Part shown: piece by piece, positions 3,671 through 40,963 of the stretch
Numbering within the stretch: position 1 is the stretch's first letter
Layout: every line of letters begins with the position of its first letter
NCBI RefSeq assembly: GCF_019037185.1
Contig: NZ_JAHHXM010000026.1
Span: 1 to 51,061, forward strand
Origin: Oceanobacillus caeni
Lineage (GTDB): Bacteria; Bacillota; Bacilli; Bacillales; Amphibacillaceae
Reading direction: 5' to 3'
Length of the DNA stretch: 51,061 nt
The notes under the pieces: model-generated
The model's database searches: none
Seen by the model: the letters and a program-made list of their open reading frames with translations, nothing else
What the model was told of the DNA's origin: nothing
Program-made: the position numbers and the translations under genes

Positions 3671-3795
3671 GCTGCATCCTCCTTGATAGTTGCATTTTTA
3701 TTTTTTTGAACAAATCCAATAATGATTTGGATGATAAAAGCTACTAAGAATGCATCGATACCTGATGCACCTGTTTTTGTAAATAATCCAAATCC
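3667..3795 (-). pseudogene. C-terminal remnant of a membrane permease (nucleobase-permease-like)
   Basis: Directly after the TetR stop codon, in the same frame, 42 codons read GFGLFTKTGASGIDAFLVAF then IIQIIIGFVQ and a polar KNKNATIKEDAA tail before a stop that overlaps the DUF917 start. The stretch is a glycine-rich turn, one hydrophobic helix and a charged tail, as at the end of a permease. There is no start codon or ribosome site. DUF917/hydantoinase operons commonly include a cytosine/purine-type permease, so this is best read as the 3' end of that gene left after an internal deletion. The family is inferred from context. Confidence 0.6.
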
Positions 3796-4407
3796 TCAAT
3801 TAAACTTTTGTCCTTCATCTATATCACTTCCAAACCTATGAATTAAGTATTGATTCATTAAATATGTCGCTTGTTTCAGATTCCTTTGGATATCGTCCTT
3901 TTCATAAATGATAATTCCCCAAAATAAACCATTTCCGAGAAAAATAAAATAATCGATGATTTCTTTTATTTCTTCTGTGTCTAAATGTGGATATCTTATA
4001 ACGATTATTTCCATCAATTGGGTAACCAACCAAGAATCATAGGTTTCTAAATAGTGACGTACCTCTTCTTTTATATCAGGAATTGAGGAGTTCACCATTA
4101 ACACATATGCTTTAGTCTCTTCCTGGTTTGAAGTATGATGGAAAGTTATCTTGTTCAATAATTCAGAAAATAATATGTGCAATGAATCACTTTGATATTG
4201 TTCAAAGGTCTCTTTCATGCTAGAAAAGTGATGGTTTAGAATTACTTTTATCGCTTCGATAAACAATTTCTGCTTGTTTTCGAAAAAATGATAAATCGAT
4301 GCTGGCTTAATTCCTACATCTTCCGCTATTTTTCGCATTGAAGCCCCTTGATAACCATGTTCTGCAAAATTCCTAATTGTCGCTTCGATAATTCTGTCCT
4401 TTGTCAT
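3796..4407 (-). CDS. TetR/AcrR family transcriptional regulator
   Basis: The N-terminus carries the TetR helix-turn-helix: RIIEATIRNFAEHGYQGASM, then RKIAEDVGIKPASIYHFFENK, followed by a variable ligand-binding domain. I chose the ATG at 4407 (203 residues) because it has a strong AGGGAGGA site 6 bases upstream. A longer reading to 4443 runs into the promoter. A perfect palindrome just upstream is a likely autoregulatory operator. The gene precedes a permease remnant, DUF917 and hydantoinase genes on the same strand, so it probably senses their substrate. Its stop codon abuts the deletion that removed the permease, yet its length is normal for the family. Confidence 0.9.
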   Translation of the reverse strand: MTKDRIIEATIRNFAEHGYQGASMRKIAEDVGIKPASIYHFFENKQKLFIEAIKVILNHHFSSMKETFEQYQSDSLHILFSELLNKITFHHTSNQEETKAYVLMVNSSIPDIKEEVRHYLETYDSWLVTQLMEIIVIRYPHLDTEEIKEIIDYFIFLGNGLFWGIIIYEKDDIQRNLKQATYLMNQYLIHRFGSDIDEGQKFN

Positions 4408-4416
4408 TTTTTCCTC

Positions 4417-4462
4417 CCTAACGTTTGTTAGGTATAATAGCACTACTTTTTAGTATCGTCAA
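4417..4462 (-). promoter_or_regulatory. TetR promoter with overlapping operator
   Basis: On the minus strand there is a -35 box TTGACG (4462-4457), a 17-bp spacer, and a -10 box TATTAT (4439-4434). A perfect inverted repeat CCTAAC-GTTT-GTTAGG at 4417-4432 covers the predicted transcription start. The arrangement is classic for TetR self-repression. With the permease deleted, this promoter probably drives the DUF917 and hydantoinase genes too. Confidence 0.75.
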
Positions 4463-4594
4463 TATTTTTTAAAAATTTATTTTTAGTAAAATAGTGGAAA
4501 CCAACTTAATATTGAGTGGATTGTAAAAGTAGGTGAAGCGGCGGAGTTGTGGGGGGTACCTCATCCCAGCTTACTGAAAAGGAATTGTCATCTG

Positions 4595-5032
4595 GATATC
4601 AGCACACATGGTCAAGATATCGGTAAACACCGTTGGAATATCAGCACACACGGGCGAGATATCGGTAAACACCGTTGGGATATCAGCACACACGGGCGAG
4701 ATATCGGTAAACATTGTTGGGATATCAGTACTCATGTACAAGATATCAGTAAACACCGTAGGAATATCGGCAGTCATGGGCGAAATATCGGTAAACATCG
4801 TTGGGATATCAGCACACACGGGCGAGATATCGGTAAATATCGTTGAGATATCAGCACTCATGGTCAAGAAATCGGTAAACTCTGTAGGGATATCAGTACT
4901 CATGAGCAAGACATCAGTATAAACCTTGGAATATCAGCTCACGGTCAAGAAATCAGTAAACACCGTAGTAATATCAGTACTCATGTGTAAGATATCAGCA
5001 TACACCGTAGGGATATCAGTACTCGGGGACAA
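4595..5032. repeat. Tandem array of 21-bp modules (21 copies, alternating A/B types)
   Basis: The region is built from 21 consecutive modules, each opening with (G/A)ATATC. All are 21 bp except one of 20 and one of 19 near the right end. Two types alternate: type A continues AGCACACACGGGCGA and type B continues GGTAAACACCGTTGG, giving a 42-bp double unit. Modules diverge towards the right (AGTACTCATG variants). Because 42 is divisible by 3 and the modules lack stop codons, long reading frames run through on both strands, but none has a ribosome site. No spacer-like unique sequence is present, so this is not CRISPR. Confidence 0.9.
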
Positions 5033-5081
5033 CCGTGTAAATGGTATCTCGGCTTTAAAAGGTGAAAAAAAGACTAAATAG

Positions 5082-5119
5082 AAAAAGCTATTCTCTAAAT
5101 AAACAGAGAATAGCTTTTT
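5082..5119. terminator. Bidirectional terminator after the repeat array
   Basis: A perfect 15-bp stem (5082-5096 with 5105-5119) with an 8-base loop is flanked by A5 on one side and T5 on the other. It would stop transcription from either direction and separates the repeat array from the minus-strand gene that ends at 5254. Confidence 0.85.
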
Positions 5120-5253
5120 AAACAAACGTTTTCAGAATGGATCTCCTATAAAGTTATTTTTCTAGTTTTTCTATACGCTTTATTAGCATTTTAGTTGTTT
5201 TCAATTATGACCAATTTTCGCCAATTCATTTAAGTTATTCATGAATCGGCCGA

Positions 5254-5964
5254 TTATTCATTGGCTTTATTGTCCTCCAATATAAACCGGAAATGGCAGT
5301 TACCTTCTTTTAAAATATATTTATCATGTTCCACTTTGAAATCGGGATTAAATCCTCTAGCTACTGCAGGATCAATCATTTCACAATATAAAATTCCATA
5401 TTCATGCATATCATCATCTGCCCATTGTTGGCCAAAGGGGCATACGGTGAAGTTTTGTTCAATTTCTCCTTCTTTATATTCCGTTGTGTAGGTGAATAGT
5501 TCACTTCTACCCATATCATAGTTTGTTAGGTAGTTTTCTCTCGTATTTTCTTCTCCATTTGCGCGAGCGCGTTGTGCGATTCCGCGACCGCGTTCCTCAC
5601 CAAAAGTACGGACACCTTCCCGGATTGCATCTTTTCCTTTTTCTCCGAATCTATCAACAATAACTTTAGAGATTTGTGCAAAGAGCTTTGCCATTAAAGC
5701 ATAATTTGTTAGATTTTCATATTTCCTCTCCGCTTGGTGATTTCTAGGAATATAGCTATATAATCGATGAATTACGCCTTCTTTAGTAGCCTGAAGAGCA
5801 ATTTCTTCCGCATCTTTATATCCGAATTTTTGAACTCCTTGTTGAAACAAAGCCTTTCCTTCTTCTCCAAACTGGGTGATGACTGATTTTTCTAAGTGTG
5901 TAAAAAGTTTGGCAGTAATGTTATCCATTGACAATGGTGGTATATGAACTTTTGTTTCACTCAA
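5254..5964 (-). CDS. L-2-amino-thiazoline-4-carboxylate hydrolase-like protein with a duplicated N-terminal motif
   Basis: The 236-residue protein ends with the pattern of the ATC-hydrolase family: Y-G-I-L-Y-C (about 191-196), a MIDPAVARGFNP segment and EGNCHFRF near the C-terminus, with two conserved cysteines. ATC hydrolase opens a thiazoline ring on the way to cysteine, but many family members have unknown substrates. Residues 18-63 and 92-137 are two ungapped 46-residue copies of the same motif (AKLF...FGE-GK...GV--FG). The start is TTG with a GGAAG site upstream. The gene is transcribed away from a symporter gene from overlapping promoters, suggesting one pathway of uptake and hydrolysis. 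Confidence 0.75.
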   Translation of the reverse strand: MSETKVHIPPLSMDNITAKLFTHLEKSVITQFGEEGKALFQQGVQKFGYKDAEEIALQATKEGVIHRLYSYIPRNHQAERKYENLTNYALMAKLFAQISKVIVDRFGEKGKDAIREGVRTFGEERGRGIAQRARANGEENTRENYLTNYDMGRSELFTYTTEYKEGEIEQNFTVCPFGQQWADDDMHEYGILYCEMIDPAVARGFNPDFKVEHDKYILKEGNCHFRFILEDNKANE

Positions 5965-22892: not shown

Positions 22893-22952
22893 TTGTAAAA
22901 CGGTTACATTTATATTATACTTTTACTAAATCGATTTACTAAACCGGTTTAG
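22893..22952 (+). promoter_or_regulatory. Promoter and twin LacI-type operators
   Basis: A promoter TTGTAA (22893-22898), 17 bp, TATACT (22916-22921) is followed by two adjacent perfect palindromes: TAAATCGATTTA (22927-22938) and CTAAACCGGTTTAG (22939-22952). Both have the central CG of LacI-family operators. A cre-like TGTAAAACGGTTACA (22894-22908) overlaps the -35 box. The layout suggests self-repression by the LacI protein plus possible catabolite control of the whole operon to 30369. Confidence 0.7.
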
Positions 22953-22977
22953 CAACTAGAATATGGGAGAATTATAT

Positions 22978-23982
22978 ATGAAGAGGATTACAATTTCTGA
23001 TGTAGCTGAGCATGCGGGTGTATCTAAAAGTACGGTATCTCAGTATTTGAATAAACGATATGATTATATGGGACAAAAAACCAAAGAACGTATTGAACAA
23101 GCAGTAAAGGAGTTGGGCTATAGTCCAAATATAATTGCAAGAAGTTTAAAGCAGAAATCAACAATGACAATAGGTGTGATTGTAGCAAATATTTTACATG
23201 TTTTTTCGACACAGGTTATACGCGCTATTGAGGATTTCTGTAATGAGAAAGACTTTCATGTAATTATCTGTAATGCTGATGATGATCCTAAGAAAGAGAA
23301 GCGTTATATTGAAATGCTTCAATCTAAGCAAGTGGATGGAATTATTGCATTTCCAACGGGAGGTAATGTGGAGCTATATAAAACATTAATCGAGGTCCAA
23401 TTTCCCGTGGTTTTTATGGACAGAATTATTCCTGGGTTAGAAATTGATACGGTTGCGCTGGATAATGAGAAGGCCTCCTTTCTAGCCGTGGAAGAGTTTT
23501 TAAGGAAAGGGTATCGGGAAATAGGAATGTTATCTCCTCCACTAAGAGAAAATGTTACACCAAGAATGGAGCGAATAAATGGTTTTAAAAAGGCATTAGA
23601 CAATAACCAAATTTTATTTAATCAAAACTATCTTATGGTTGACGAAATTAATAATATTCAGGGGGCCATGAAGAAAATGTTAGAACAAGATAACCCTCCG
23701 AAGGCGCTCCTAGCCCTAAATGATAGAGTTTTACATGAAGTATTAGCCTTTACAAAAAAACATCGAATGCATTTACCGGAAGATTTGGCGGTAATTGGAA
23801 TTGATGAGGTATCCTATGCAAAAATCTATAGTCCGGCATTGACCACTATTCAACAGCCGGCTTTTGATATGGGAAAAAAGGCGGCAGAATTATTATTTAA
23901 TCGAATTACAAATAAAAATAATTGTACGGGTCCTAAAATTTATCGGTTTGAACCGAAGTTAAATTCAAGGGAATCATGCTAA
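22978..23982 (+). CDS. LacI family regulator of the sugar-acid operon (KdgR-like)
   Basis: The N-terminal LacI helix-turn-helix is clear (ITISDVAEHAGVSKSTVSQY, then LNKRYDYM). It is followed by the periplasmic-binding-protein-like sensor domain (TIGVIVANIL, VDGIIAFPTGG, DLAVIGIDE). I chose ATG 22978 because GGGAG lies about 8 bases before it; the ATG at 22963 has none. The gene is first in an operon of about 7.4 kb with no internal terminator seen, so it likely represses its own operon through the palindromes upstream. The inducer is probably a sugar acid or its phosphate such as KDG or KDPG. Confidence 0.87.
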   Translation: MKRITISDVAEHAGVSKSTVSQYLNKRYDYMGQKTKERIEQAVKELGYSPNIIARSLKQKSTMTIGVIVANILHVFSTQVIRAIEDFCNEKDFHVIICNADDDPKKEKRYIEMLQSKQVDGIIAFPTGGNVELYKTLIEVQFPVVFMDRIIPGLEIDTVALDNEKASFLAVEEFLRKGYREIGMLSPPLRENVTPRMERINGFKKALDNNQILFNQNYLMVDEINNIQGAMKKMLEQDNPPKALLALNDRVLHEVLAFTKKHRMHLPEDLAVIGIDEVSYAKIYSPALTTIQQPAFDMGKKAAELLFNRITNKNNCTGPKIYRFEPKLNSRESC

Positions 23983-24001
23983 ATCAAAAGGGGAAATAAC
24001 G

Positions 24002-24553
24002 ATGGAACAAATGATAAAAACAGTTGCAACTGAAGTTAATGAGATTGTACAGCAAATAGACGCAGATGAAACAAAGGTATTAGCAGAAGAGATTCAGAAG
24101 GCAAAGCGAATTTTTATTTCAGGTACAGGTCGTTCCGGATTAGTCGGAAAAATATTCGCTATGCGTTTAATGCACAGTGATTACCCTGTCTATGTTGTAG
24201 GTGAAACCATTACACCTAGTATTGAACCAAATGATCTTTTGCTTATTATTTCCGGATCCGGAAGCACGGGTTCACTTGTACAGTATGCAAAAAAGGCAAA
24301 AGAAGCAGATGCAAAAGTAGCACTAGTAACAACCAATAAGGATTCCGCTATTGGTCAAATCGCCGATCAATCTGTACGGATTCCAGCTGCAACTAAGAAA
24401 CGTTTGGAAACAGAGCCAAATACAATTCAACCATTAGGAAGTCAATTTGATCAGTCGGCCCACTTATTATTAGATGCGATTGTTGTTTATTTATTACAAC
24501 ATTATCCAAAGGAAAGTCAAAATTTAAATCAAAAACATGCAAATTTAGAATAA
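24002..24553 (+). CDS. hxlB: 6-phospho-3-hexuloisomerase (PHI)
   Basis: A single SIS-domain protein of 183 residues, as is typical of PHI. It has FISGTGRSGLVGKIFAMRLM (about 37-56), the phosphosugar-binding loop, and IISGSGSTGSL (about 82-92), the second. The C-terminal PLGSQFDQSAHLLLDAI matches PHI rather than other SIS isomerases. PHI interconverts D-arabino-3-hexulose-6-phosphate and fructose-6-phosphate in the ribulose monophosphate pathway. Its usual partner, HPS, is the last gene of this operon, 5.2 kb away, instead of adjacent. The partner's distance is unusual. Confidence 0.88.
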   Translation: MEQMIKTVATEVNEIVQQIDADETKVLAEEIQKAKRIFISGTGRSGLVGKIFAMRLMHSDYPVYVVGETITPSIEPNDLLLIISGSGSTGSLVQYAKKAKEADAKVALVTTNKDSAIGQIADQSVRIPAATKKRLETEPNTIQPLGSQFDQSAHLLLDAIVVYLLQHYPKESQNLNQKHANLE

Positions 24554-24572
24554 GGATAGGAGATATGAATTC

Positions 24573-25208
24573 ATGTCAATTATAGATGAAATTAAAAAGA
24601 ATAAGATTGTTGCTGTAATTCGTAAATCAAATAAAGAAAATATCGTCCCTATTCTTAAAGCCTTATCCAACGGTGGTGTCAAATCTGTTGAAATTACAGC
24701 GGAGACACCAAATGTTGGGAGTATAATTGAAACCGCTGTAAATCAAATTGGAGAAGAAGTTAATATCGGTGCAGGGACTGTATTAGATCCGGAAACGGCA
24801 AGAACAGTAATCATGGCAGGTGCCAAATTTATTGTCTCTCCAACATTGAATACAGAGACGTTAAAGCTGACCAATCGTTATGGCATTTTAAATATACCTG
24901 GCGTCATGACACCGAGTGAAATCTTAACTGCTTATGAAAATGGGGCACAAATGGTCAAAGTATTTCCAGCAGAAATTTTAGGACCAAATTATATTAAAAA
25001 TATTCTTGGACCACTTCCATATGTACAAGCAATGGTAACAGGTGGGATTACAATTGAGAATATGAATGAATATCTTGCTAAAGGAAGTGTCGCTGTAGGA
25101 ATTGGCAGTAATCTAGTAAATGCAAGCAAATTAAAGACCAAAGAAGACTATAATGATTTAACGAAAAGAGCTAATCAATATACTAGTAAGCTAAAAGAAC
25201 TTGAATGA
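24573..25208 (+). CDS. kdgA: 2-keto-3-deoxy-6-phosphogluconate (KDPG/KHG) aldolase
   Basis: A 211-residue class I aldolase with the family residues: R17 in AVIRK, E40 in VEITAETP, GAGTV (66-70), and the Schiff-base lysine K129 in MVKVFPAE. It splits KDPG to pyruvate and glyceraldehyde-3-phosphate. KDG kinase in the same operon provides its substrate. The ribosome site AGGAGAT is 9 bases upstream. Length and motifs are normal. Confidence 0.92.
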   Translation: MSIIDEIKKNKIVAVIRKSNKENIVPILKALSNGGVKSVEITAETPNVGSIIETAVNQIGEEVNIGAGTVLDPETARTVIMAGAKFIVSPTLNTETLKLTNRYGILNIPGVMTPSEILTAYENGAQMVKVFPAEILGPNYIKNILGPLPYVQAMVTGGITIENMNEYLAKGSVAVGIGSNLVNASKLKTKEDYNDLTKRANQYTSKLKELE

Positions 25209-25239
25209 TAACTTCTGACGAAAAAGGGAGGCAAAAAAG

Positions 25240-26265
25240 ATGAATAAATTTAAGGGTGCTTTCATTGCGGCTATTCTTTTAGGTATTATGGTCTTGACTG
25301 GATGTAATACACAACAGGTCGATGCGGATGGGGATGGAAAAATTAAAATTATTGCAGCTCATAACCAAACATCACCGGATAATCCATATCAGACTGGTTT
25401 ATTAAAATTTAAGGAAGTTGCCGAAAAAGAATCGAATGGGACAATTGAAGTTGAAGTACATGCTGGGACAATTGGAACCGAAGAATCACAGCTTGTAGAG
25501 AAACTTCAATTGGGTGCTGCTGATGTCATCGTTGTTTCACCTGGTTTTATGACGCAAACAGGGATCAAGGAAGTAGATTTATTTTCAGCGCCATATTTAT
25601 TTAATAGTTACGACCATTGGTTACAAGCGGTTGATGGTGAAGTAGGAAATAAGATGGCGGAAATTATCAATGAAAAATCAAATAATTCCTTTAAAGTACT
25701 AGGTTATTGGACAGCTGGAGTTAGACATTATTATGGAAAGAAACCGATAGAAACAGTAGAAGATCTTAAAGGTGTTTCACTTCGTACCCAAACATCTGGA
25801 GTTGTTTCCGACTTTTGGACTACAACTGGTGCAATTCCATCCTCTATTTCTTGGGGGGAACTTTACCAAGGCTTGCAGCAAGATGTTGTTGATTCTTCAG
25901 AAAACGCCTATCCGTTCTTTGTGCAACAAGCTCATCATACCACTTCAAACGGCAAATACATTACAGAAACAGCACATGATTATACAACCAGATTTTTCTT
26001 AATAAATGGAGAAAAGTTTGATCAGTACTCCGGCGAACAGCAAGAAATAATTCTAAAAGCTGCAAAGGAATCTATTGAAGCAGAGAGAGAATCAACACTT
26101 TTGCAGGACGAAGAATATAAGAAAAAGGCGATTGATGATGGTGCGATTGTTAATGAGATTGATAGACAACCATTTATTGAGATTGCTAGACCAATCTTGA
26201 ATGATTTCGCAAAAGAGATAGGTGTAGAAGATTTATTAAAGGATATTTATGAACTAGATAAATAA
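25240..26265 (+). CDS. TRAP transporter substrate-binding lipoprotein (DctP family)
   Basis: The N-terminus is a lipoprotein signal with lipobox LTGC (Cys22). The mature protein is a DctP-type binding domain: LQLGAADVIVVSPGFM (about 86-101), DLFSAPYLFNSYDHW (about 108-122), LRTQTSGVVSDFWTTTGAIP with the conserved carboxylate-binding arginine near 185, and YQGLQQDVVDSSENAYPF. It captures an organic acid outside the membrane for the two membrane subunits encoded next. Operon partners point to a sugar acid such as 2-keto-3-deoxygluconate or a uronate. Confidence 0.9.
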   Translation: MNKFKGAFIAAILLGIMVLTGCNTQQVDADGDGKIKIIAAHNQTSPDNPYQTGLLKFKEVAEKESNGTIEVEVHAGTIGTEESQLVEKLQLGAADVIVVSPGFMTQTGIKEVDLFSAPYLFNSYDHWLQAVDGEVGNKMAEIINEKSNNSFKVLGYWTAGVRHYYGKKPIETVEDLKGVSLRTQTSGVVSDFWTTTGAIPSSISWGELYQGLQQDVVDSSENAYPFFVQQAHHTTSNGKYITETAHDYTTRFFLINGEKFDQYSGEQQEIILKAAKESIEAERESTLLQDEEYKKKAIDDGAIVNEIDRQPFIEIARPILNDFAKEIGVEDLLKDIYELDK

Positions 26266-26290
26266 AGCGTTATCATAAGGAGGTAATACC

Positions 26291-26776
26291 GTGAAACGTT
26301 TCGTACAGGCGCTTGATAAGATACAAATGATTGTTGGTTCTATATTTCTATGTATTTTCTTCCTCGTTATTATATTACAAATTGTCACAAGGCATTTAGG
26401 AATTTCTGTTATTTGGACAGAAGAAGTAGCAAACTATTCTTTTATTTGGGCGATATTGATGGGATCTTCTGTGATGGTAAATCGTAGAGAACATTTTAAT
26501 TTTGACTTTATTCAACGAAAATTAACGGGGGCTAAAGGTGCAACATTGAATATAGTAATTGATTTGATTCTTGTTGCATTTAATATTGTTATCTTTTTAT
26601 TAGGTATTCAAGTTGTAACAGAGTTCTGGAATTATACATGGGTAACGATCCCCGAAATGAAGATGGGTTATATTTGGATTGCTATTCCAATAATGGCTGG
26701 AACCATGATTATTTATTCCTTTTCTCATTTAATGAATCATATGAAGGCGTTAAAATCGGGGGAGGTAAGTAGCTAA
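26291..26776 (+). CDS. TRAP transporter small membrane subunit (DctQ)
   Basis: A 161-residue protein with four hydrophobic segments and the DctQ features: VIWTEEVANYSFIWAILMGS (about 37-56) and a tail helix with GYIWIAIPIMAGT. The start is GTG with an AGGAGGT ribosome site. Its stop codon overlaps the ATG of the large subunit (TAATG), a translational coupling typical of TRAP operons. Confidence 0.9.
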   Translation: MKRFVQALDKIQMIVGSIFLCIFFLVIILQIVTRHLGISVIWTEEVANYSFIWAILMGSSVMVNRREHFNFDFIQRKLTGAKGATLNIVIDLILVAFNIVIFLLGIQVVTEFWNYTWVTIPEMKMGYIWIAIPIMAGTMIIYSFSHLMNHMKALKSGEVSS

Positions 26777-28065
26777 TGGCTATATTATTAGTAGGATTAT
26801 TTCTTATTCTAATGTTCATCGGTGTTCCAATTGCTTTTGTAATTGGGATAGTAGCCTTATTAGGTATCTTCGGAATGCCATATACACCGGAAGCTACCGT
26901 ACCAATGAAAATGGTGAATGGTCTGGATTCATTTGTACTGCTAGCTATTCCATTATTTATTCTAGCCGCCAACTTGATGAATTCCGGAAAAATATCAGAA
27001 AAGTTAATCGACTTTGCTATGTCGATTGTTGGACCGATTCGTGGGGCATTGGCACATGCGAATATTTTGGTATCCATGATGTTTGCTGGGGTTTCAGGTG
27101 CAGCTCAAGCAGACGCTGCAGGTATGGGTAAAATTCTTATACCAAGTATGGTGAAGAAAGGCTATGACAAGGAGACAGCTGTTGCGGTAACGGCTGCATC
27201 CTCTACGATTGGAGTAGTAATTCCGCCAAGTATACCAATGATCATTTTCGCGGGATTAACAAATGCATCTATTGGTGCTTTATTCCTAGGTGGAATCGTT
27301 CCTGGAATCTTAATCGGTCTTGGGATGATGTTATTCGTTTATTTTATTGCTATAAAAAGAAATTATCCAAAAGAAAAACGTGTTCCGATAAAGAGAATTG
27401 CTAAATTATTTTTAGAGTCTTTACCTGCATTATTCACACCTATTATCATTATTGGTGGAATAATCAGTGGGTTTTTCACAGCTACAGAAGCAGCAGCTGT
27501 TGCATCCGTTTATACATTATTAATTAGTATGTTTTACTATAAAACATTGAAACTCAATGATCTTCCAAGAATAATAATGGACACGCTCGCACTAAGTTCT
27601 CTTTCGTTATTTGCCTTGGCAACAGCAAGTGCACTTGGTGAATTAATGAGCTACTACCAATTGGGAACGATTGCACAAGACTTCTTCGCTAATAATGTAG
27701 GTTCATCTTGGATATTCATTCTTATTGTTATACTTTTCTTCTTATTTATTGGTACTTTTATGGATGCGATTCCAGCAATGATTTTATTTGTTCCAATGAT
27801 TTTACCAACTGCTATTGAGTTTGGAATAGAACCAGTTCAATTAGGATTAATTATCGTTATTACATTAGCAATTGGACTAGCTACCCCGCCATATGGGCTT
27901 GTCTTATTAATTTCAGCTAAAATCGGAAACTTATCTATAGAAAGGTCATTTGTTGCTGTTCTTCCGTATTTAGCGATTATATTAGTTATCTTATTATTAA
28001 TAGCTTTTCTACCGGGCTTGGCATTTGCTATCCCAAAATGGTTGAATCCTAGCCTATTTGGTTAA
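26776..28065 (+). CDS. TRAP transporter large membrane subunit (DctM)
   Basis: A 429-residue polytopic protein with the DctM signatures: GVSGAAQADAAGMGKILIPS, near residues 109-128, then KGYDKETAVAVTAASSTIG and VIPPSIPMIIFAG, in which the PP-S-x-P motif forms the substrate and sodium site. There are about 12 hydrophobic segments. This sodium-driven subunit carries the substrate delivered by the DctP lipoprotein. The start overlaps the DctQ stop. Confidence 0.92.
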   Translation: MAILLVGLFLILMFIGVPIAFVIGIVALLGIFGMPYTPEATVPMKMVNGLDSFVLLAIPLFILAANLMNSGKISEKLIDFAMSIVGPIRGALAHANILVSMMFAGVSGAAQADAAGMGKILIPSMVKKGYDKETAVAVTAASSTIGVVIPPSIPMIIFAGLTNASIGALFLGGIVPGILIGLGMMLFVYFIAIKRNYPKEKRVPIKRIAKLFLESLPALFTPIIIIGGIISGFFTATEAAAVASVYTLLISMFYYKTLKLNDLPRIIMDTLALSSLSLFALATASALGELMSYYQLGTIAQDFFANNVGSSWIFILIVILFFLFIGTFMDAIPAMILFVPMILPTAIEFGIEPVQLGLIIVITLAIGLATPPYGLVLLISAKIGNLSIERSFVAVLPYLAIILVILLLIAFLPGLAFAIPKWLNPSLFG

Positions 28066-28082
28066 TAAAAGGAGTTCTGTAA

Positions 28083-28784
28083 ATGATAGATAAAGAGATT
28101 CTTGATAAAAAGTTAGCCGCGGAAGCATCACTAGAATATGTGGAAGACGGAATGGTTATTGGATTAGGTTCAGGTTCCACGGTTAATTGGATGTTAAAAA
28201 AACTAGGTGAACTTGTTAAAGACGGGCTATCTATTCAGGGTATCCCTACCTCACAAAGGACGGAGCGCCTAGCAAGAGAATTGGGTATCCCTTTAACAGA
28301 CTTTTCCGAGGTAACAAAGGTTGATATCGCAATTGATGGTGCGGATGAAGTGGATGGAAATCTAAACCTTTTGAAAGGTGGGGGTGGATCCCTTGTTAGG
28401 GAGAAAATCGTGGATTCAGCCAGTGATAAGCTGATTATCATAGTTAATGATAAAAAAATAGTATCTACATTAGGTGATTTTCCATTACCAGTTGAAGTTG
28501 TACCATTCGGTTGGGAAGTGACCGCTAGAAAACTTGAGGCACTGGGATGTGCCCCAACGTTAAGAAAAGGGAAAAATCAAATCTTTATCTCGGATAATGG
28601 TAATTATATTCTAGATTGTAAGTTTGAAAAAATAAGCAACCCAAAAGAACTACATGAATCATTGAAAGAAACAGTAGGTGTTGTTGAAACTGGTCTATTT
28701 ATTTCGATGGCAGATCAAGTCATTGTTTCTGTTAATAATGATATAAAAATATTGACAAATGAAAAGGGATTTGGAGGTAGCTAG
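28083..28784 (+). CDS. rpiA: Ribose-5-phosphate isomerase A
   Basis: The 233-residue protein has the RpiA motifs GLGSGSTV (27-34), the catalytic DGADEVD segment (about 82-88), and LKGGGGSLVREKI (about 93-105), with the usual lysine. It interconverts ribose-5-phosphate and ribulose-5-phosphate. Ribulose-5-phosphate is both acceptor and product in the HPS reaction, so its presence with hxlA and hxlB is metabolically consistent. RpiA is usually housekeeping; a copy within an inducible sugar-acid operon is noteworthy, and a second copy elsewhere in the genome is likely. Confidence 0.92.
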   Translation: MIDKEILDKKLAAEASLEYVEDGMVIGLGSGSTVNWMLKKLGELVKDGLSIQGIPTSQRTERLARELGIPLTDFSEVTKVDIAIDGADEVDGNLNLLKGGGGSLVREKIVDSASDKLIIIVNDKKIVSTLGDFPLPVEVVPFGWEVTARKLEALGCAPTLRKGKNQIFISDNGNYILDCKFEKISNPKELHESLKETVGVVETGLFISMADQVIVSVNNDIKILTNEKGFGGS

Positions 28785-28785
28785 G

Positions 28786-29736
28786 TTGAATGACGTAATT
28801 ACAATTGGGGAAGCAATGATTACATTTAATCCCGAATCAACTGGTCCATTGAAATTTATTAATCGATTTGAAAAAAAGGTAGGAGGAGCAGAGCTAAATT
28901 TAGCCATCGGTGTTTCCCGATTAGGTCTGAAAGCTGGTTGGATTAGTCGATTAGGAAATGATGAATTTGGAAAATATATTAAAACTTTTGCTCGTGGCGA
29001 AGGAATTGATGTATCACAAGTAGCACACGTGAATGGGTATCCAACTTCCTTGAACTTTAAAGAAATCAGAGAAGATGGAAGTGGAAAGACATTCTATTAT
29101 CGTAACCAATCACCAACATTGACATTAGGTCCAACTGATTTGGATGAAGTATTTTTTAAGCAAGCAAAGATCTTACATCTTACTGGTATCTATCCAGCAA
29201 TCGGCGAAATTAATAAACAGGTTATTTTTAAAGCCATTGATTTAGCAAAGAAACATAGCTTAAAGATCTCCTTTGATCCGAATATTCGACTTCGCATGTG
29301 GAGTAAAGAAGAAGCTAGTAAGGTCTTATATGAAATTCTCCCACATGTTGATATTTTATTGGCCGGCGCTGAGGAAATGGATATCATTATTGGAGAAAAG
29401 GATCCTGACCGTATCATTGAAAAGGCTAAAGAACTTGGTATCTCCTATGTTGCCATTAAACAAGGGGATAAAGGCTCCGTTGGATATCACGACGGGGAAA
29501 CGATTCTTTCCCCAGCTATTAAGGCAAGCAAAGTTGCTGATACAGTAGGGGCTGGTGATGGCTTTAATGCAGGTTTCTTATATGGCATTATAAATGGATG
29601 GACACTAGATAAAACCCTACATTTTGCTAATACGATTGGATCAATGGTAGTTAGCGTGTTAGGTGATAATGAAGGATTACCATATTATGAAGATATTCAG
29701 GAAAAGCTAGGTGAAATTGAAGCAATTGAAAGGTAA
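28786..29736 (+). CDS. kdgK: 2-keto-3-deoxygluconate kinase, PfkB family
   Basis: A PfkB-family sugar kinase of about 316 residues. It opens VITIGEAMITFNPESTGPLK, typical of KDG kinases, then VGGAELNLAIGVSRLG. The second signature DTVGAGDGFNAGF holds the catalytic aspartate. The best start is TTG 28786, one base after the rpiA stop, because GGAGGT (28773-28778) sits 7 bases upstream; an earlier in-frame start lies inside rpiA with no ribosome site. It phosphorylates KDG to KDPG for the aldolase in the same operon. Other 2-keto sugar acids remain possible substrates. Confidence 0.85.
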   Translation: MNDVITIGEAMITFNPESTGPLKFINRFEKKVGGAELNLAIGVSRLGLKAGWISRLGNDEFGKYIKTFARGEGIDVSQVAHVNGYPTSLNFKEIREDGSGKTFYYRNQSPTLTLGPTDLDEVFFKQAKILHLTGIYPAIGEINKQVIFKAIDLAKKHSLKISFDPNIRLRMWSKEEASKVLYEILPHVDILLAGAEEMDIIIGEKDPDRIIEKAKELGISYVAIKQGDKGSVGYHDGETILSPAIKASKVADTVGAGDGFNAGFLYGIINGWTLDKTLHFANTIGSMVVSVLGDNEGLPYYEDIQEKLGEIEAIER

Positions 29737-29751
29737 AATAGAGGTGCAACC

Positions 29752-30369
29752 ATGAAATTACAGTTAGCATTGGATAGGTTAACGAAAGAGCAATGTTTTC
29801 AACTCGTAACGGATACAAAGGAAAGTATTGATATTATTGAAATAGGTACAGGTGTCATTAAGGAATACGGTATGTCCATTGTTCGAGACATGAGGGAGCA
29901 ATTTCCTGATAAAGAAATTTTGGCTGATATGAAAACCTGTGATGCCGGGAAACATGAAACTCTACAAGCATTTGATGCAGGTGCAGATATTACGACGGTC
30001 ATGGCATTTTCCGCCATCCCTACTATTAAAGACACGTTGAATGTAGCGAAGGAAATGGACAAACGAATCATGATTGATTTATTAGAATGTCATTCCAAAG
30101 ATAGAATAAGAGAGCTAGAGAATATTGGAACTGATCTAGTAAGTTTACACGTTGGGAAAGATAAGCAAACAGAGGGAACGTTTAATACAGAACTATTTAC
30201 TTTGGTTAATGGATTTAATTTTGAAGTTGCGGTTGCTGGAGGAATTAACTTAGATACCATCCCAGAAATTGTAAAGGAAAAGCCGGATATTATTATCGTC
30301 GGAAGTGCGATAACTAAGGCAGAGGATCCAGCAAAAGTAGCCAAAGAAATGCGACAAATGTTAGTTTAA
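29752..30369 (+). CDS. hxlA: 3-hexulose-6-phosphate synthase (HPS)-like protein
   Basis: A 205-residue TIM-barrel protein of the OMP-decarboxylase superfamily. LQLALDRL begins strand 1, EIGTGVIKEYG follows, and ADMKTCDAGK (about 58-67) is the metal/catalytic motif in its HPS form (D-x-K-T-x-D-A-G) rather than the D-x-K-x-x-D form of KGPDC/UlaD. The phosphate site AVAGGIN and IIIVGSAIT are present. HPS condenses formaldehyde with ribulose-5-phosphate; related enzymes decarboxylate 3-keto-gulonate-6-phosphate. The sequence favours HPS, and hxlB in the operon agrees. KH follows the motif where canonical HPS often has other residues, so some divergence is possible. Confidence 0.78.
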   Translation: MKLQLALDRLTKEQCFQLVTDTKESIDIIEIGTGVIKEYGMSIVRDMREQFPDKEILADMKTCDAGKHETLQAFDAGADITTVMAFSAIPTIKDTLNVAKEMDKRIMIDLLECHSKDRIRELENIGTDLVSLHVGKDKQTEGTFNTELFTLVNGFNFEVAVAGGINLDTIPEIVKEKPDIIIVGSAITKAEDPAKVAKEMRQMLV

Positions 30370-30451
30370 CATTCTTGGAAATTCAATATGATATGCTGTG
30401 GTGAGTTTTATTTTGAGAATGTTACTTTTATAAACTACCTAATATATTGGC

Positions 30452-30484
30452 AGTCTGCAGAATTATATTTCTGCAGACTTTTTG
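30452..30484 (+). terminator. Terminator of the LacI/TRAP/HPS operon
   Basis: AGTCTGCAGAA (30452-30462) pairs perfectly with TTCTGCAGACT (30469-30479) through a 6-base loop, and T5 follows. It marks the operon's end and supports one transcript from 22920 to 30480. Confidence 0.95.
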
Positions 30485-36420: not shown

Positions 36421-36713
36421 TTCTCACATCATACACACCCTTTATTAGAATATTGATTATAACACCAAAATAATAAATGGATGTTAGAACAATCACAAAA
36501 ACTAATGGTGTTTAAATCAATAAAATGATGGTTTATTGCATGCATGTAGTCATGTTGGTCATGTCACTTTGGAACAGAAGTAAATCTGTAATACACCCAA
36601 AAGTTAGATGTCTACTCTAACTTTTGGGGGGAGCGTACTATGCTTGTGTCTCCTCCCGTTCTATGGGATAATAAAACCACTGTTTAAAAATGCAACAAAC
36701 GAGGTGTGTTCTG
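36421..36713. other. Intergenic region with an IS-end-like inverted repeat
   Basis: About 290 bases. A perfect 12-bp inverted repeat CCCAAAAGTTAG / CTAACTTTTGGG (36596?-36607 exact arms 36596-36607 and 36617-36628) with a 9-base loop lies here. It has no T-run on either side, so it is not a normal terminator. The arm sequence resembles ends of IS3-family elements, suggesting a relic of paired ends. The ribosome site GAGGTG of the next gene is at about 36701-36706. Confidence 0.45.
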
Positions 36714-38444
36714 ATGATAAAAGCACTTTTTATTGCTCCCTATACAGGGTTAGCGGAAACGGTTAAAAAGACCAATGTTCCTAATGATTTTGATATAGAT
36801 GTTGAGGTTGCTAACCTAGAAGATGCGATTGATATTGCTGAACGTGCCGAAAAGGACAAGTATGACATAATCATAAGTCGTGGTGGTACCGCCTCGCTGA
36901 TTCAGGAAATTGTATCCATTCCAGTTATTCATGTCGATATTAGTGGGTATGATTTGCTTCGTGTTTTTACGTTTATTCGGGAAATGAATGAAGGGGTGGC
37001 ACTTGTAGGGTTTGAAAACATTACCCGAGGTGCTGGGATATTGTGTAATATAATGGAATACGATGTCCAAGTGGTTACTGTGAAAAATAGCAATGACGTG
37101 GTCCCAACATTGGAAAAGTTGAAGAACCAAGGATTTACCGTTGTACTAGGAGATACGATTACGATACAGGAAGCGGAAAAAATAGGTTTACGGGGGATAT
37201 TAATTACGTCTGGAAAAGAAGCTGTTATGGATGCGTATGATGAGGCTAGGCGGTTATACCGTTTATTTAAAGGTGTAACAAGACAAATAAATGAATATCA
37301 TCATATCTTACAATCCCTGCCATTCCCGTTTGTTTTAGTTAATAATGAGAAAGAAATTTTGGATAAAAATAGTTTATTTGATAATGAACTCCTTCAACAT
37401 AATGTGTTGATTCCTGATGTTTGGAAAGTTGTGAAGCGTGTTTTAGAACGTGGACAAAATGAATGGGCTGAAATAGAAGGGGAATCTAAAGGATATGTGG
37501 TACAGGTTTTTCCTGTTAAAGAGAAATTGATGGCAGGAATTATTGTACACTCCTCCTTTAAATTAGTTAAGAAAAGTTATCAAATCAATCACTGTTCTGC
37601 TCGTTTACCAATTATTGGTGACAGTCGTCAGGCGGAAAGTTTGCGGAGTAATTTAAATAAATATGCATTGACGGATGTCCCTATTATGATTGTGGGCGAA
37701 GCCGGAACAGGGAAAAGCACGATAGCTCAGGCTATACATTTTGAACGATTTGGACAGGATCATCCCATTGTTTTTGTGTGGGGGAACCGTTTAAATGATT
37801 TGGAGTGGGAAGAGCTCAACCGTACATTGTTCAAGATACAGAAAGGGACTCTTCTTATCAAGAACATAGAAGAACTTTCCAAACAAACACAGTATAAATT
37901 ATTGGATCTTTTAAATCAAATTCCAGGAAAAATAAAAGTAATCTCTTTAGTAAATTATGCCTTGGATTCCAAGGTTCAACAAGGACAATTTCTTAAGGAA
38001 TTATATGAAAAACTATCTAACCTTCCTTTGTACGTAGTTCCATTAAGAGAAAGGAAAGGGGATATCGCAACATTTATAGGCTATTTTCTATCCGATTTTC
38101 ATGCAGAAAGTGGAAATGAAACATTAGGTATGAAAAAAGAAGCGATGGATTATTTGAAACAATTTGATTGGCCAGGGAACTTTACCCAGTTGAAAAATGT
38201 GATTAATGAATTAAGTATGACGACTTCAGATTTATATATAGAACTGAATCATGTAATAGACGTTCTGTCACATTTAGAAACAGGAGATACTGTTGAAGAA
38301 AATGTACCAAGTAACCAAACATTAGAAGAAATAGAAAAAGTGGTTATTAGAAAAGTGCTTGAAGAAGAGAATCATAATCAAACCAAAGCGGCGAAACGAC
38401 TAGGGATTAGTCGAACGACATTATGGAGAAAATTAAATTCATAG
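36714..38444 (+). CDS. PrpR-type regulator with an AAA+ domain lacking GAFTGA
   Basis: An N-terminal PrpR_N receptor domain (about 1-180: AERAEKDKYDIIISRGGTAS, IPVIHVDISGYDLLR), a linker, an AAA+ domain with GEAGTGKST (about 328-336) and a Fis-type helix-turn-helix (NQTKAAKRLGISRTTLWRKL) at the C-terminus. The GAFTGA loop that contacts sigma-54 is absent and Walker B is degraded (TLLIKNIEEL), so it probably acts with sigma-A. I chose ATG 36714, with GAGGTG 7 bases upstream. It precedes a KdgT permease and an acid-sugar kinase, which it likely controls in response to their substrate. Confidence 0.83.
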   Translation: MIKALFIAPYTGLAETVKKTNVPNDFDIDVEVANLEDAIDIAERAEKDKYDIIISRGGTASLIQEIVSIPVIHVDISGYDLLRVFTFIREMNEGVALVGFENITRGAGILCNIMEYDVQVVTVKNSNDVVPTLEKLKNQGFTVVLGDTITIQEAEKIGLRGILITSGKEAVMDAYDEARRLYRLFKGVTRQINEYHHILQSLPFPFVLVNNEKEILDKNSLFDNELLQHNVLIPDVWKVVKRVLERGQNEWAEIEGESKGYVVQVFPVKEKLMAGIIVHSSFKLVKKSYQINHCSARLPIIGDSRQAESLRSNLNKYALTDVPIMIVGEAGTGKSTIAQAIHFERFGQDHPIVFVWGNRLNDLEWEELNRTLFKIQKGTLLIKNIEELSKQTQYKLLDLLNQIPGKIKVISLVNYALDSKVQQGQFLKELYEKLSNLPLYVVPLRERKGDIATFIGYFLSDFHAESGNETLGMKKEAMDYLKQFDWPGNFTQLKNVINELSMTTSDLYIELNHVIDVLSHLETGDTVEENVPSNQTLEEIEKVVIRKVLEEENHNQTKAAKRLGISRTTLWRKLNS

Positions 38445-38463
38445 AGCAATAAAAAGAAGAGAT

Positions 38464-38483
38464 GGGAGACTGTCTCCTTTTTT
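38464..38483 (+). terminator. Terminator after the PrpR-type regulator
   Basis: A compact hairpin GGAGA-CTG-TCTCC is followed by TTTTTTAT, and the upstream A-rich side extends the pairing. It separates the regulator from the kdgT transcript. Confidence 0.8.
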
Positions 38484-38588
38484 ATTTGTTTAAAAATGTA
38501 ACGAAAATATCTTTATTGAGATCATTCAATAGGTTCGTTTTTTATAAATAGTGTTGCAATATATATATTTTTAGTATAGAATTGCTTA

Positions 38589-38633
38589 TGCAAACGCTTA
38601 ATAAAATAATAATCGTTACATAATTAAACGATT
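38589..38633 (+). promoter_or_regulatory. Control region of kdgT: cre-like site and inverted repeat
   Basis: TGCAAACGCTTAAT (38589-38602) matches much of the CcpA consensus but has three mismatches. AATCGTT (38611-38617) and AACGATT (38627-38633) form a 7-bp inverted repeat with a 9-base spacer just before the ribosome site, a candidate operator for the regulator upstream. No -24/-12 promoter is present, in line with the missing GAFTGA motif. Confidence 0.45.
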
Positions 38634-38654
38634 CGTATAAAAGGGGAGATATTT

Positions 38655-39641
38655 ATGAAAATTAAAGCTACATTAGAAAAGATTCCAGGTGGTATGATGG
38701 TTGTTCCATTGTTGCTTGCTGCAACAATCAATACGTTTGCGCCGGATTTATTAAGGATAGGAAACTTTACAGAAGCGTTATTTGTGGATGGAGCAAGTAC
38801 ATTAATCGCTTTGTTCTTACTATTTACAGGTGCACAAATTAACCTAAAAAACGTAGGGGTTAGTCTTGGGAAAGGGGCAACCCTCTTATTAACGAAATGG
38901 GTTGTTGGTGCAATTGTTGGTTTAATTGCGTTTATGTTTGCTGGTGATGATGGACTATGGTTGGGACTTGCACCAATTGCCATTATTGCTGCGATGACCA
39001 ATAGTAATGGTGGTTTATATGTTGCGTTAGTTGGACAGTACGGAGATAAGACAGACCGTGCGGCGTATTCTTTATTGGCATTAAATGACGGTCCGTTTTT
39101 AACGATGGTTGCATTAGCTATTTTTGGCGCAATGGGATTTGTTGATGGTATGTTCTCCATTGTTTCCTTTATTTCCGTATTATTACCAATCGTTATTGGT
39201 ATGGTTTTAGGTAATCTAGACGAGGATATGCGCGACTTCTTTAATCAAGGAAGTTCTGTACTAATTCCATTTTTTGCATTTGCATTAGGAATGGGAATTA
39301 ACTTTGAGAGCATTATCGAAGGTGGATTATCCGGTATTATAGTTGGTTTATTAACTGTATTTGTTACTGGTACTGCGGGTTACTTTGTATTTAAAGCTAT
39401 GAAATGGAATCCGATTGCTGGCGTTGCTGAAGGATCCACAGCTGGTAATGCTGTAGCAACACCTGCTGCTATCGCTGCAGCTAGCTCTGCATTTGCTGCA
39501 AATGTTGAACTTGCAACTGTTCAAGTTGCTGCATCTGTAGTGACAACGGCCATTTTACTACCTATTTATCTTGGATTTCTTGTGAAAAGACTGGAGAAAA
39601 AAGGTATTCGAGTGCCAGATGATTATGTGGTCGATAAGTAA
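38655..39641 (+). CDS. kdgT: 2-keto-3-deoxygluconate permease (KdgT family)
   Basis: A 328-residue, about 10-segment membrane protein. It begins KATLEKIPGGMMVVPLLLAA, the usual KdgT start, and has TNSNGGLYVALVGQYGD (about 114-130) and a C-terminal EGSTAGNAVATPAAIAAAS (about 258-276), characteristic of the family. E. coli KdgT imports KDG by proton symport. The neighbouring kinase belongs to the DUF1537 acid-sugar kinases, not to KDG kinases, so the real cargo may be a four-carbon sugar acid or a related compound. Confidence 0.87.
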   Translation: MKIKATLEKIPGGMMVVPLLLAATINTFAPDLLRIGNFTEALFVDGASTLIALFLLFTGAQINLKNVGVSLGKGATLLLTKWVVGAIVGLIAFMFAGDDGLWLGLAPIAIIAAMTNSNGGLYVALVGQYGDKTDRAAYSLLALNDGPFLTMVALAIFGAMGFVDGMFSIVSFISVLLPIVIGMVLGNLDEDMRDFFNQGSSVLIPFFAFALGMGINFESIIEGGLSGIIVGLLTVFVTGTAGYFVFKAMKWNPIAGVAEGSTAGNAVATPAAIAAASSAFAANVELATVQVAASVVTTAILLPIYLGFLVKRLEKKGIRVPDDYVVDK

Positions 39642-39670
39642 TTCATAAAAGCTGAGGGTGATGGAACAAC

Positions 39671-40963
39671 ATGGATAGACCGATAGGAATTATTGCGGAT
39701 GATTTGACAGGTGCAAATGATAGTGGAATTCAATTAACGATGAAGGGAATCCATACATCGGTTTACTTTGAAATTCCAACTCATCATCATCATTTATCAA
39801 GTGGGATTGTGATTGACACGAATTCTCGAGCGTTATTAAAGGAAGAAGCTGTTTCCGCTGCGAAACACGCTTCCTTGTTTTTAAAAGAAGCTGGATATAA
39901 CCATATTTATAAAAAAATGGATTCTACATTAAGAGGACATACAGGGTTAGAGTTAAAGGCAATTAGGGAAGTTTTTGATCCTGAATATGTTGTTGTTGCT
40001 CCGGCGTTTCCGGCGCTTGGTCGAACAACAAAGGATGGAATACATTATGTAAATGGGGAGAAAATAGTGGATACGGAATTTTCCAAGGATCCAAAACACC
40101 CTGTTACAACTTCTTTTATTCCAGCTTTACTTGAAAATGAAACGAAAGAGCCAATTGGTCAATTAACAAGGGCGGACTATGAGAAAGACTCGTCCAAATT
40201 TCAAGAAAAGCTAAAGTCTTGGAAAGATCGTGGCGTAACGTATATTGTTTGCGATGCGGAAACACAGGATGATTTACGAATGGCTGCAAAACGTATCGCC
40301 TCCATATCCAAAAATGTGATATGGGCAGGATCTGCTGGGTTAGCAGAAGTGCTTCCAGAAGTACTGGGATTCGGTCAACAGGTTGGGGAGCAAGAATTTT
40401 CAATATCTCAACAAGTTATGACCGTTTGTGGTAGCCTGTCGCAAGTAACACAAAATCAAGTCAAATATGCTGCGAAGCAATCTAATATCACGGCTGTTGA
40501 GGTAAATACGGTAGAAATATTTACTGAAGAATGGGATATACATAAGAATCACTATATAAAAGAATGTCTAACTGGATTACGCCAAGGAAATGATATTGTT
40601 CTTTTCGTGCCTTCGAATGAAACGATTCGACAAGTAGTGAAACAGGTTGGAAACAGTTTAGAGCTAACTGGTAACCAAATTGGGGAAAAGATATCTCACG
40701 CATTAGGAGAACTTACTGTTAGAGTAGCGGAAGAAGCGGAGCAACTCACTGGTTTTGTACTTACAGGTGGGGATACGGCAAAAGATATTTCTCGTCAATT
40801 GGGTGGTATCGGTTTTCAGTTGGTGAAACAGATAGAAGCGGGAATTCCATTAGGATCTTTAATTGGAACTGAAAAGGAATATTTCGCGGTAACGAAAGCT
40901 GGTGCATTTGGGAAAGAAGATTCTATTTATCGTGCTATGCAAGAATTAAAGGGAGTTCGGTGA
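39671..40963 (+). CDS. Four-carbon acid sugar kinase family protein (DUF1537)
   Basis: The 430-residue protein has the DUF1537 N-terminal motif IIADDLTGANDSGIQL (about 7-22) and IYKKMDSTLRGHTGLEL (about 80-96). AGSAGLAEVLP is near 220, and the C-terminal nucleotide-binding domain has FVLTGGDTAKDI (about 357-368). Members phosphorylate threonate, erythronate or 3-oxo-tetronates. Family partners such as PdxA2 or OtnC are not adjacent, so the pathway must be completed elsewhere or differ. It is 29 bases after kdgT and shares its control region. Its product is uncertain among acid-sugar phosphates. Confidence 0.85.
   Translation: MDRPIGIIADDLTGANDSGIQLTMKGIHTSVYFEIPTHHHHLSSGIVIDTNSRALLKEEAVSAAKHASLFLKEAGYNHIYKKMDSTLRGHTGLELKAIREVFDPEYVVVAPAFPALGRTTKDGIHYVNGEKIVDTEFSKDPKHPVTTSFIPALLENETKEPIGQLTRADYEKDSSKFQEKLKSWKDRGVTYIVCDAETQDDLRMAAKRIASISKNVIWAGSAGLAEVLPEVLGFGQQVGEQEFSISQQVMTVCGSLSQVTQNQVKYAAKQSNITAVEVNTVEIFTEEWDIHKNHYIKECLTGLRQGNDIVLFVPSNETIRQVVKQVGNSLELTGNQIGEKISHALGELTVRVAEEAEQLTGFVLTGGDTAKDISRQLGGIGFQLVKQIEAGIPLGSLIGTEKEYFAVTKAGAFGKEDSIYRAMQELKGVR

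Follow-up and report, generated by a model that had tools for sequence, protein, structure and literature searches.

A probable LacI-controlled 2-ketohexonate operon in Oceanobacillus caeni in which HPS and PHI may lead to ribulose-5-phosphate

The window analysed here is a 51,061-nucleotide stretch of Oceanobacillus caeni DNA (contig NZ_JAHHXM010000026.1, from a genome of 3.57 Mb in 87 contigs that is 99.9% complete), and our subject is a nine-gene operon within it that joins HPS and PHI, known from the ribulose monophosphate (RuMP) pathway, to genes of sugar-acid breakdown. The nine genes lie on the same (+) strand between positions 22963 and 30369 with intergenic gaps of at most 31 bases, two of the joins being overlaps (DctQ/DctM by 1 base and RpiA/PfkB by 26). 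In order, they encode a LacI-family regulator (22963–23982, with a second in-frame ATG at 22978), PHI of the SIS fold (24002–24553; 240 bits on TIGR03127, cut-off 160), the aldolase Eda, which acts on KHG and on 2-keto-3-deoxy-6-phosphogluconate (KDPG) (24573–25208; 183 bits on TIGR01182, cut-off 156), the TRAP solute-binding protein DctP (25240–26265, by family models and structure matches), the small permease DctQ (26291–26776, GTG start), the large permease DctM (26776–28065; 391 bits, cut-off 268), the ribose-5-phosphate isomerase RpiA (28083–28784; 287 bits, cut-off 192), a PfkB-family sugar-acid kinase (28759–29736) and HPS of the HUMPS fold (29752–30369; 269 bits on TIGR03128, cut-off 200). 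A KguD reductase is not among the nine genes of the operon. The DctP structure matches are to many TRAP proteins, with titles broken off before most ligands, and allow no ligand to be assigned. The best model for the kinase, that of 2-keto-3-deoxygluconate (KDG)/KDGal kinase, gives 247 bits, below its cut-off of 400, and IolC gives 225, below 300, so the family models leave its substrate unfixed; we propose from its family and tree position that it is a KDG or 2-ketohexonate kinase. Elsewhere in the genome there is a second Eda (contig C34, near a UxuA-like gene) and nine further PfkB matches, two of which (contigs C6 and C11) were placed in the kinase tree and fall outside the KDG/KguK group; the operon HPS is the sole HPS above the family cut-off.

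The operon is framed by recognizable control elements. Just upstream of lacI stand two operators identified by repeat count and near-palindrome scan, CTAAATCGATTTAC (22926–22939) and the perfect palindrome CTAAACCGGTTTAG (22939–22952). The core TAAANCGNTTTA is present twice in the window (22927–22938 and 22940–22951) against 0.13 expected, two copies arising in one of 100 shuffles. Of 67 relatives, 58 also have CG-centred near-palindromes of 14 bases within about 220 bases 5' of lacI, versus 5.4% of letter shuffles. Immediately 5' of the operators is a plausible promoter-like site, TTGTAA-17-TATACT (22893–22921, + strand). At the other end an intrinsic terminator with an 11-pair stem and a T run (30452–30479, + strand) is the strongest of eight terminator-like sites, where 4.6 were expected. 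An earlier sequence-only reading had proposed this operon with its gene names, a KDG/KDPG branch, twin operators and a terminator at 30452, all of which are supported by the strand, spacing, family scores, repeat counts and terminator scan; the promoter it proposed is present, but such matches are no commoner in the region than chance (33 found versus 33.7 expected). Further regulon sites could not be recognized in the window genome, as the operator pattern matched 16 times including the window's two and the reversed pattern matched 16 times as well; three other matches that were inspected lie by or inside unrelated genes.

We consider it probable that this is a LacI-controlled 2-ketohexonate operon in which PHI isomerises and HPS decarboxylates along a route from 2-keto-6-phosphogluconate to ribulose-5-phosphate. 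The TRAP transporter DctPQM would import 2-keto-D-gluconate, and probably KDG as well, and the PfkB kinase would phosphorylate O6, converting 2-ketogluconate into 2-keto-6-phosphogluconate. PHI, as a putative 2-keto/3-keto 6-phosphohexonate isomerase, would then form 3-keto-6-phosphogluconate by the same C2/C3 ketose shift that it performs on fructose-6-phosphate, with a carboxylate replacing CH2OH at C1, and HPS, as a candidate 3-keto-6-phosphogluconate decarboxylase, would split this β-keto acid into D-ribulose-5-phosphate and CO2, a loss of C1 as in its reverse reaction with CO2 in place of formaldehyde. RpiA would feed ribulose-5-phosphate into the pentose phosphate pathway, while Eda would split KDPG derived from KDG that shares the importer and the kinase. 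The net result of PHI and HPS would equal that of KguD followed by 6-phosphogluconate dehydrogenase, without the redox cofactor (NADP). Because it lacks a hydroxyl at C3, KDPG is no substrate for PHI; the HPS/PHI branch needs a 2-keto acid that retains this group, a description that 2-keto-6-phosphogluconate would fit. We infer these catalytic steps and the substrate from the established reactions of the families, read alongside the gene content, conservation, subfamily residues, shared operators and kgu association observed below.

A scan of contigs with peptides of the window HPS returned 69 loci, in Bacillus-like genera by their titles. Genes were counted within a single unbroken run on the strand of HPS, a rule that yields lower bounds (it missed the existing Eda of L054, and the L010 and L035 loci are short pieces at the ends of contigs). 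HPS was present in all 69 runs, PfkB and PHI in 67 each, DctM and LacI in 65 each and DctP in 64, and at least 61 of the 69 carried LacI, PfkB, HPS, PHI and DctM together in a single run. Eda (50 of 69), RpiA (20 of 69, with ten more loci having it nearby on the opposite strand) and a small cupin (20 of 69) were less regular. The constant core is therefore the regulator, the kinase, HPS, PHI and the importer, with Eda and RpiA as accessories, and the chance neighbourhood that the sequence-only reading had named as grounds for refutation gives way to a conserved one. Its remark that HPS and PHI bracket the operon describes the window correctly but does not extend to a general rule, the two genes being adjacent in 48 of the 67 relatives in which both were called. 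The small cupin (about 93 residues, 3' of DctM; at 14774–15055 in L016 and in 19 other loci) gave no NCBIfam match for the single copy scanned, and it may resemble the uronate-opening KdgF. A plasmid search with the HPS gave 203 records, all below 60% identity, the best among the matches listed having 39.7%.

The KDG branch deserves separate comment. One operon (L007) has no kinase, and a uxuAB operon of the same genome (L104) encodes a window-group kinase with 61% identity, which suggests that window-type kinases may serve KDG too. Nineteen runs are without Eda (L054 among them, which in fact has it), yet Eda was found somewhere in 20 of 20 genomes tested (16 from Eda-less runs plus four loci with Eda), so the argument that a genome without Eda could not use the operon for KDG was rejected. 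Several of the tested genomes hold a separate pair of kinase and Eda, and in those the operon kinase need not be a KDG kinase.

The HPS and PHI of these operons form subfamilies that can be told from the canonical enzymes by a few residues. We compared 70 window-type HPS sequences (the 69 loci plus the window) and a canonical set of 30, the top-scoring loci among 249 Bacillales genomes: R9/G34/K37/Y39/C63/K136 is found in 70 of 70 of the former, versus L/P/I/E/M/Y in 30 of 30 of the latter, and both sets share D8, E30, D59, K61, D64 and H133. In PHI, L145/D150/H154 occurs in 68 of 68 window-type sequences versus M/E/L in 27 of 27 canonical ones (three of the 30 canonical loci did not show a PHI). 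The peptides used to find the loci include HPS positions 79–86 and exclude positions 9, 37, 39, 63 and 136, so these columns were not selected for. In a structural model of the HPS (mean pLDDT 93.6, about 70 for residues 131–140 around K136) the signature positions lie at or just past the C-terminal ends of barrel strands 1, 2, 3 and 6, that is, on the catalytic face. K136 aligns with residue 139 of the decarboxylase KGPDC (R in 1xby, V in 1xbx); by their titles, these entries are the KGPDC mutants E112D/T169A and E112D/R139V/T169A with D-ribulose 5-phosphate bound. The exchange of Glu for Asp in PHI and the new basic residues in HPS could suit a substrate with a C1 carboxylate. Canonical-scoring and lower-scoring HPS occur together in 17 genomes, as counted by score.

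Twenty more loci were reached from lower-scoring HPS matches among the Bacillales genomes: 14 have a homologue of KguE, 13 a KguT-like MFS transporter and 11 Eda, and most also have LacI, PfkB and PHI (three other low-scoring matches, L143, L144 and L145, are of other types). These sister operons combine LacI, KguE, KguK, KguT or another permease, HPS and PHI, often with Eda; the KguE homologue of L148, the single one scanned, is a PF01261 TIM barrel. The epimerase family leads to a plasmid-borne set in Klebsiella aerogenes annotated as PtxS, 'Epimerase KguE', '2-ketogluconate kinase', a transporter and '2-ketogluconate 6-phosphate reductase'. With K. pneumoniae proteins as the Gram-negative references, KguK is 49–58% identical to the kinases of sister group S1, KguE 32–38% to the S1 set and KguT 62–67% to the transporters of groups S1 and S2. 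The kinases of S1, S2 and the lactic acid bacterial (LAB) loci group with Klebsiella KguK on a 99% branch, as do those of Cytobacillus gottheilii L106 and L107 (the kinase and LacI trees were built quickly, with SH-aLRT support values, and rooted at the midpoint). The LAB loci lie on three plasmids and have the order KguE-permease-kinase-HPS-PHI-Eda plus a LacI gene, divergent in Tetragenococcus; one of the plasmids (L162, L163, L164) is typed conjugative and two mobilizable, and two of the loci are near IS elements. In a class sample of 348 genomes, 18 match the LAB HPS, and of 13 contexts fetched six have kguE. A Ligilactobacillus match (22% identity) has a different context.

In all, kguE and HPS occur together in 23 loci (found via HPS, except the LAB loci, which were found via KguE), all 23 have PHI, and KguD was found in none of them. 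Four Gram-negative kguE operons show the converse, with a KguD-type reductase and no HPS or PHI annotated (one has ptxS annotated in two pieces); a Serratia symbiotica record lists no kgu genes. Every sister locus checked for both enzymes has R9/K37 in HPS and L145/D150/H154 in PHI (13 pairs in S1, 3 in S2 and 3 in LAB), and the same residues occur in 13 of 13 HPS and 11 of 11 PHI of the class sample. At every locus where both genes were checked, the two signatures are both of the pathway type or both canonical. The operon of L140 contains transketolase (918 bits, cut-off 682) and transaldolase (362 bits, cut-off 282) genes at 2723–5509, among KguE, KguK, HPS and PHI, fitting a pentose-phosphate output, and L141 adds a transaldolase. 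Two further neighbours were seen in these clusters: at 5525–7975 of L159 an Ldh_2-family dehydrogenase, a possible feeder that converts an aldonate into a 2-keto acid, lies directly 5' of pathway-type HPS and PHI, and at 2515–5302 of L196 a hydantoinase/oxoprolinase-like gene (708 residues) and a 226-residue neighbour lie within a KguE-HPS-PHI cluster.

The association also holds when approached from kguE. A search of the 249 Bacillales genomes found kguE in 19, and in 18 of these an HPS on the kguE contig lies no more than 9 kb away, in 18 of 18 cases with R9/K37; in the remaining genome, G227, kguEKT-eda (L215) and pathway-type HPS and PHI (L142) are on different contigs. Two loci bridge the sister operons and the window type. 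L217 has the order kguE-lacI-PHI-eda-dctP-dctQ-dctM-rpiA-pfkB-HPS, the window order with kguE at the front, and operators 5' of kguE and 5' of PHI. L219 reads dctPQM-lacI-kguE-kguK-kguT-HPS-PHI, with operators 5' of the TRAP genes and 5' of kguE, and its DctP, DctQ and DctM are 44, 41 and 61% identical to those of the window. In L005, L009, L011 and L012 a KguE homologue is divergent beside a window-type operon. KguT (63–68% identity) is found in 14 of 15 sister-type genomes versus 0 of 10 window-type genomes, the window's own included, and the TRAP importer appears to replace it there.

Regulation points in the same direction. The exact window operator CTAAACCGGTTTAG recurs 5' of kguE in L147 and L153 and 5' of HPS in L153, L157 and L158, with a near form 5' of HPS in L147 and L156. 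A LacI-type regulator accompanies a PtxS-like palindrome in the window (CTAAACCGGTTTAG, compared with TGAAACCGGTTTCA), and L148 has the PtxS-like palindrome TGAGACCGGTTTCA. A 98% branch unites the window LacI with the kgu-type regulators of S1a; Klebsiella PtxS groups with S1b, so the window LacI is not PtxS itself. The LacI proteins of L148, L149, L151 and L152 do group with PtxS (98% branch) and are 37–39% identical to that of K. pneumoniae.

The Gram-negative 2-ketogluconate operon is given as ptxS-kguE-kguK-kguT-kguD in the excerpted text of PMC11678583. The window operon shares with it a LacI-type repressor with a AAACCGGTTT-centred palindrome, a kinase and a sugar-acid importer, and the sister operons share KguE and KguK and often KguT homologues; it differs in having HPS and PHI in place of the KguD reductase and, for the window type, in importing through TRAP, lacking KguE and using a kinase from a different group. 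A second point of comparison is KGPDC, the HUMPS-family decarboxylase of the ula and yia/sgb pathways, which acts on a 3-keto-hexonate 6-phosphate in company with a kinase and, in yia, a TRAP importer. The window HPS resembles it in D59/K61/D64 (the DxKxxD motif), H133 and the basic K136 at the position of R139, but has D109 and A162 where KGPDC has E112 and T169, falls under the UlaD/SgbH cut-offs (NF009832, 130 against 250 bits; NF009831, 109 against 294), and would act on a D-series substrate made by PHI as a 3-keto acid, with ribulose-5-phosphate as the product. The Bacillus kdgRKAT operon comprises a LacI regulator, a KDG-type kinase, a KDPG aldolase and the importer KdgT; the window operon has all four functions in one operon, but with TRAP for KdgT, with HPS, PHI and RpiA added and with Eda outside 19 of the 69 runs. 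Against the hxlAB genes of the RuMP pathway, folds, D8/D59/K61/D64/H133 of HPS and above-cut-off scores agree, and the differences are R9/K37/C63/K136 and D150/H154 in the window versus canonical L9/I37/M63/Y136 and E150/L154, together with the sugar-acid context. By the tests made, the window operon would work like the kgu pathway with a last step like that of KGPDC, and is a member of neither.

Several observations weigh against a 2-ketogluconate pathway, or against its extension to the window. KguE and KguT were not found in the window genome at E 1e-15 and 1e-40, respectively, and the window kinase falls outside the KguK group, on a separate 99% branch that it shares with kinases of uxuAB operons (L104, L115); as a substrate, 2-ketogluconate is therefore less certain in the window than in the sister operons. 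Eda recurs in the operons although the HPS/PHI branch does not need it. Gracilibacillus timonensis, which carries the operon (L028), is API-negative for 2-ketogluconate, and also for glucose, in the excerpt of PMC6485780; in the partial descriptions of three species all are 2-ketogluconate-negative, G. timonensis being the only one known here to have the operon. The exact operator CTAAACCGGTTTAG was not found in the other sister loci scanned (e.g. L146, L152, L140 and L162). K136 is V or I in 3 of 3 S2 proteins and in 6 of 13 class-sample HPS, the window-type L200 among them, so it cannot be essential, and its use as the sole diagnostic residue was dropped; R9 and K37 hold throughout. The canonical HPS set was picked for high model scores, and the residue changes could partly reflect ancestry, the subfamilies being separate branches. 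Of 25 genomes checked, 23 encode a KguD-like dehydrogenase (41–50% identity) at another site (G014, which holds L140, and G151 do not), so genome-wide absence of KguD had to be rejected, and its absence from the operons does not exclude a reductive route. Finally, KguT relatives (61–72% identity) occur in eight other records without annotated kguE; the family is not specific, which weakens KguT likeness alone as evidence for the substrate.

The grouping of window-type kinases with those of the uxuAB operons would fit the same logic of isomerase and decarboxylase applied by the window-type (TRAP) operon to another hexonate, such as a 2-ketohexonate that Ldh_2 makes once an aldonate has been imported, or a keto acid of uronate origin. 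The presence of HPS within Ldh2-TRAP-ZnADH-Eda-UxuA-UxuB operons in L022, L044, L199 and L202, which counts against 2-ketogluconate, suggests aldonate-derived 2-keto acids, and the adjoining Ldh2-HPS-PHI genes of L159 and the small cupin of 20 of the 69 runs (by its possible likeness to KdgF) lean the same way. Against this, the window-type LacI shares a branch with the kgu-type regulators of S1a and its operator recurs there, L217 and L219 tie the window order and a relative of its TRAP importer (DctP 44%, DctM 61%) to kguE, kguK and kguT, and RpiA asks for D-ribulose-5-phosphate; we regard another hexonate as unlikely, if still the strongest of the rivals. The sequence-only reading had itself offered two explanations, one of them a canonical RuMP role in which an imported compound (e.g. 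an O-methyl uronate) frees formaldehyde that HPS and PHI fix on ribulose-5-phosphate from RpiA. Both enzymes do score above the TIGR03128 and TIGR03127 cut-offs, no other HPS in the window genome does, and RpiA, like the transaldolase and transketolase of L140, would also fit a RuMP cycle. Yet the distinct residues on the HPS catalytic face and in PHI, the 17 genomes with a canonical-scoring HPS beside a lower-scoring one and the association with kguE, kguK and kguT speak against it, and the recurrent accessory families read in the 69 relatives include no apparent formaldehyde source, methanol dehydrogenases and demethylases not having been searched by name. The formaldehyde explanation is thereby left with little beyond the family names, and we hold it to be improbable.

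Its second explanation, HPS as a decarboxylase, is the better supported of the two by the residue changes, the kgu sister operons, the operators and the bridging loci, although it had come without the link to 2-ketogluconate and without PHI as the supplier of the 3-keto acid. A further alternative is that HPS and PHI run in reverse from fructose-6-phosphate, as archaea use them, to provide pentose phosphate during growth on KDG, whose catabolism alone yields none. This would release formaldehyde and leaves the kgu association and the residue changes unexplained, and we think it very improbable indeed.

Two other features of the window may be recorded. About 6 kb past the operon terminator, at 36690–40963, is a second sugar-acid locus with an apparent sigma-54-type activator followed by a KdgT-family 2-keto-3-deoxygluconate permease (PF03812, 379 bits) and a PF07005/PF17042 kinase. 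At 4571–4922 a short-unit tandem repeat opens long frames on both strands, the minus-strand peptide repeating TDIPTVFTDIS-like units; it is probably non-coding.

In the open literature we found no paper tying HPS or PHI to KdgR, to KDG with TRAP import, to uronate or to ketogluconate and none on decarboxylation of 3-keto-6-phosphogluconate; subscription papers fall mostly outside this search, and a prior description is possible. Taking the 2-ketohexonate reading of these operons as a whole, we lean, with marginally less confidence than for the pathway itself, towards a widespread, unrecognised Bacillota shunt whose HPS and PHI were recruited from formaldehyde chemistry, which is carried on chromosomes and on LAB plasmids and is commonly annotated as RuMP; the database names of HPS and PHI are probably wrong in this operon. 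If true, two families that serve as markers of methylotrophy and of the detoxification of formaldehyde would gain a new function, and a common sugar acid would have a decarboxylating route to pentose phosphate that needs no cofactor. It would also explain how 2-ketogluconate could be used by many Gram-positives whose operon lacks KguD, and genome annotators could tell the two functions apart by R9 and K37 of HPS together with D150 and H154 of PHI.

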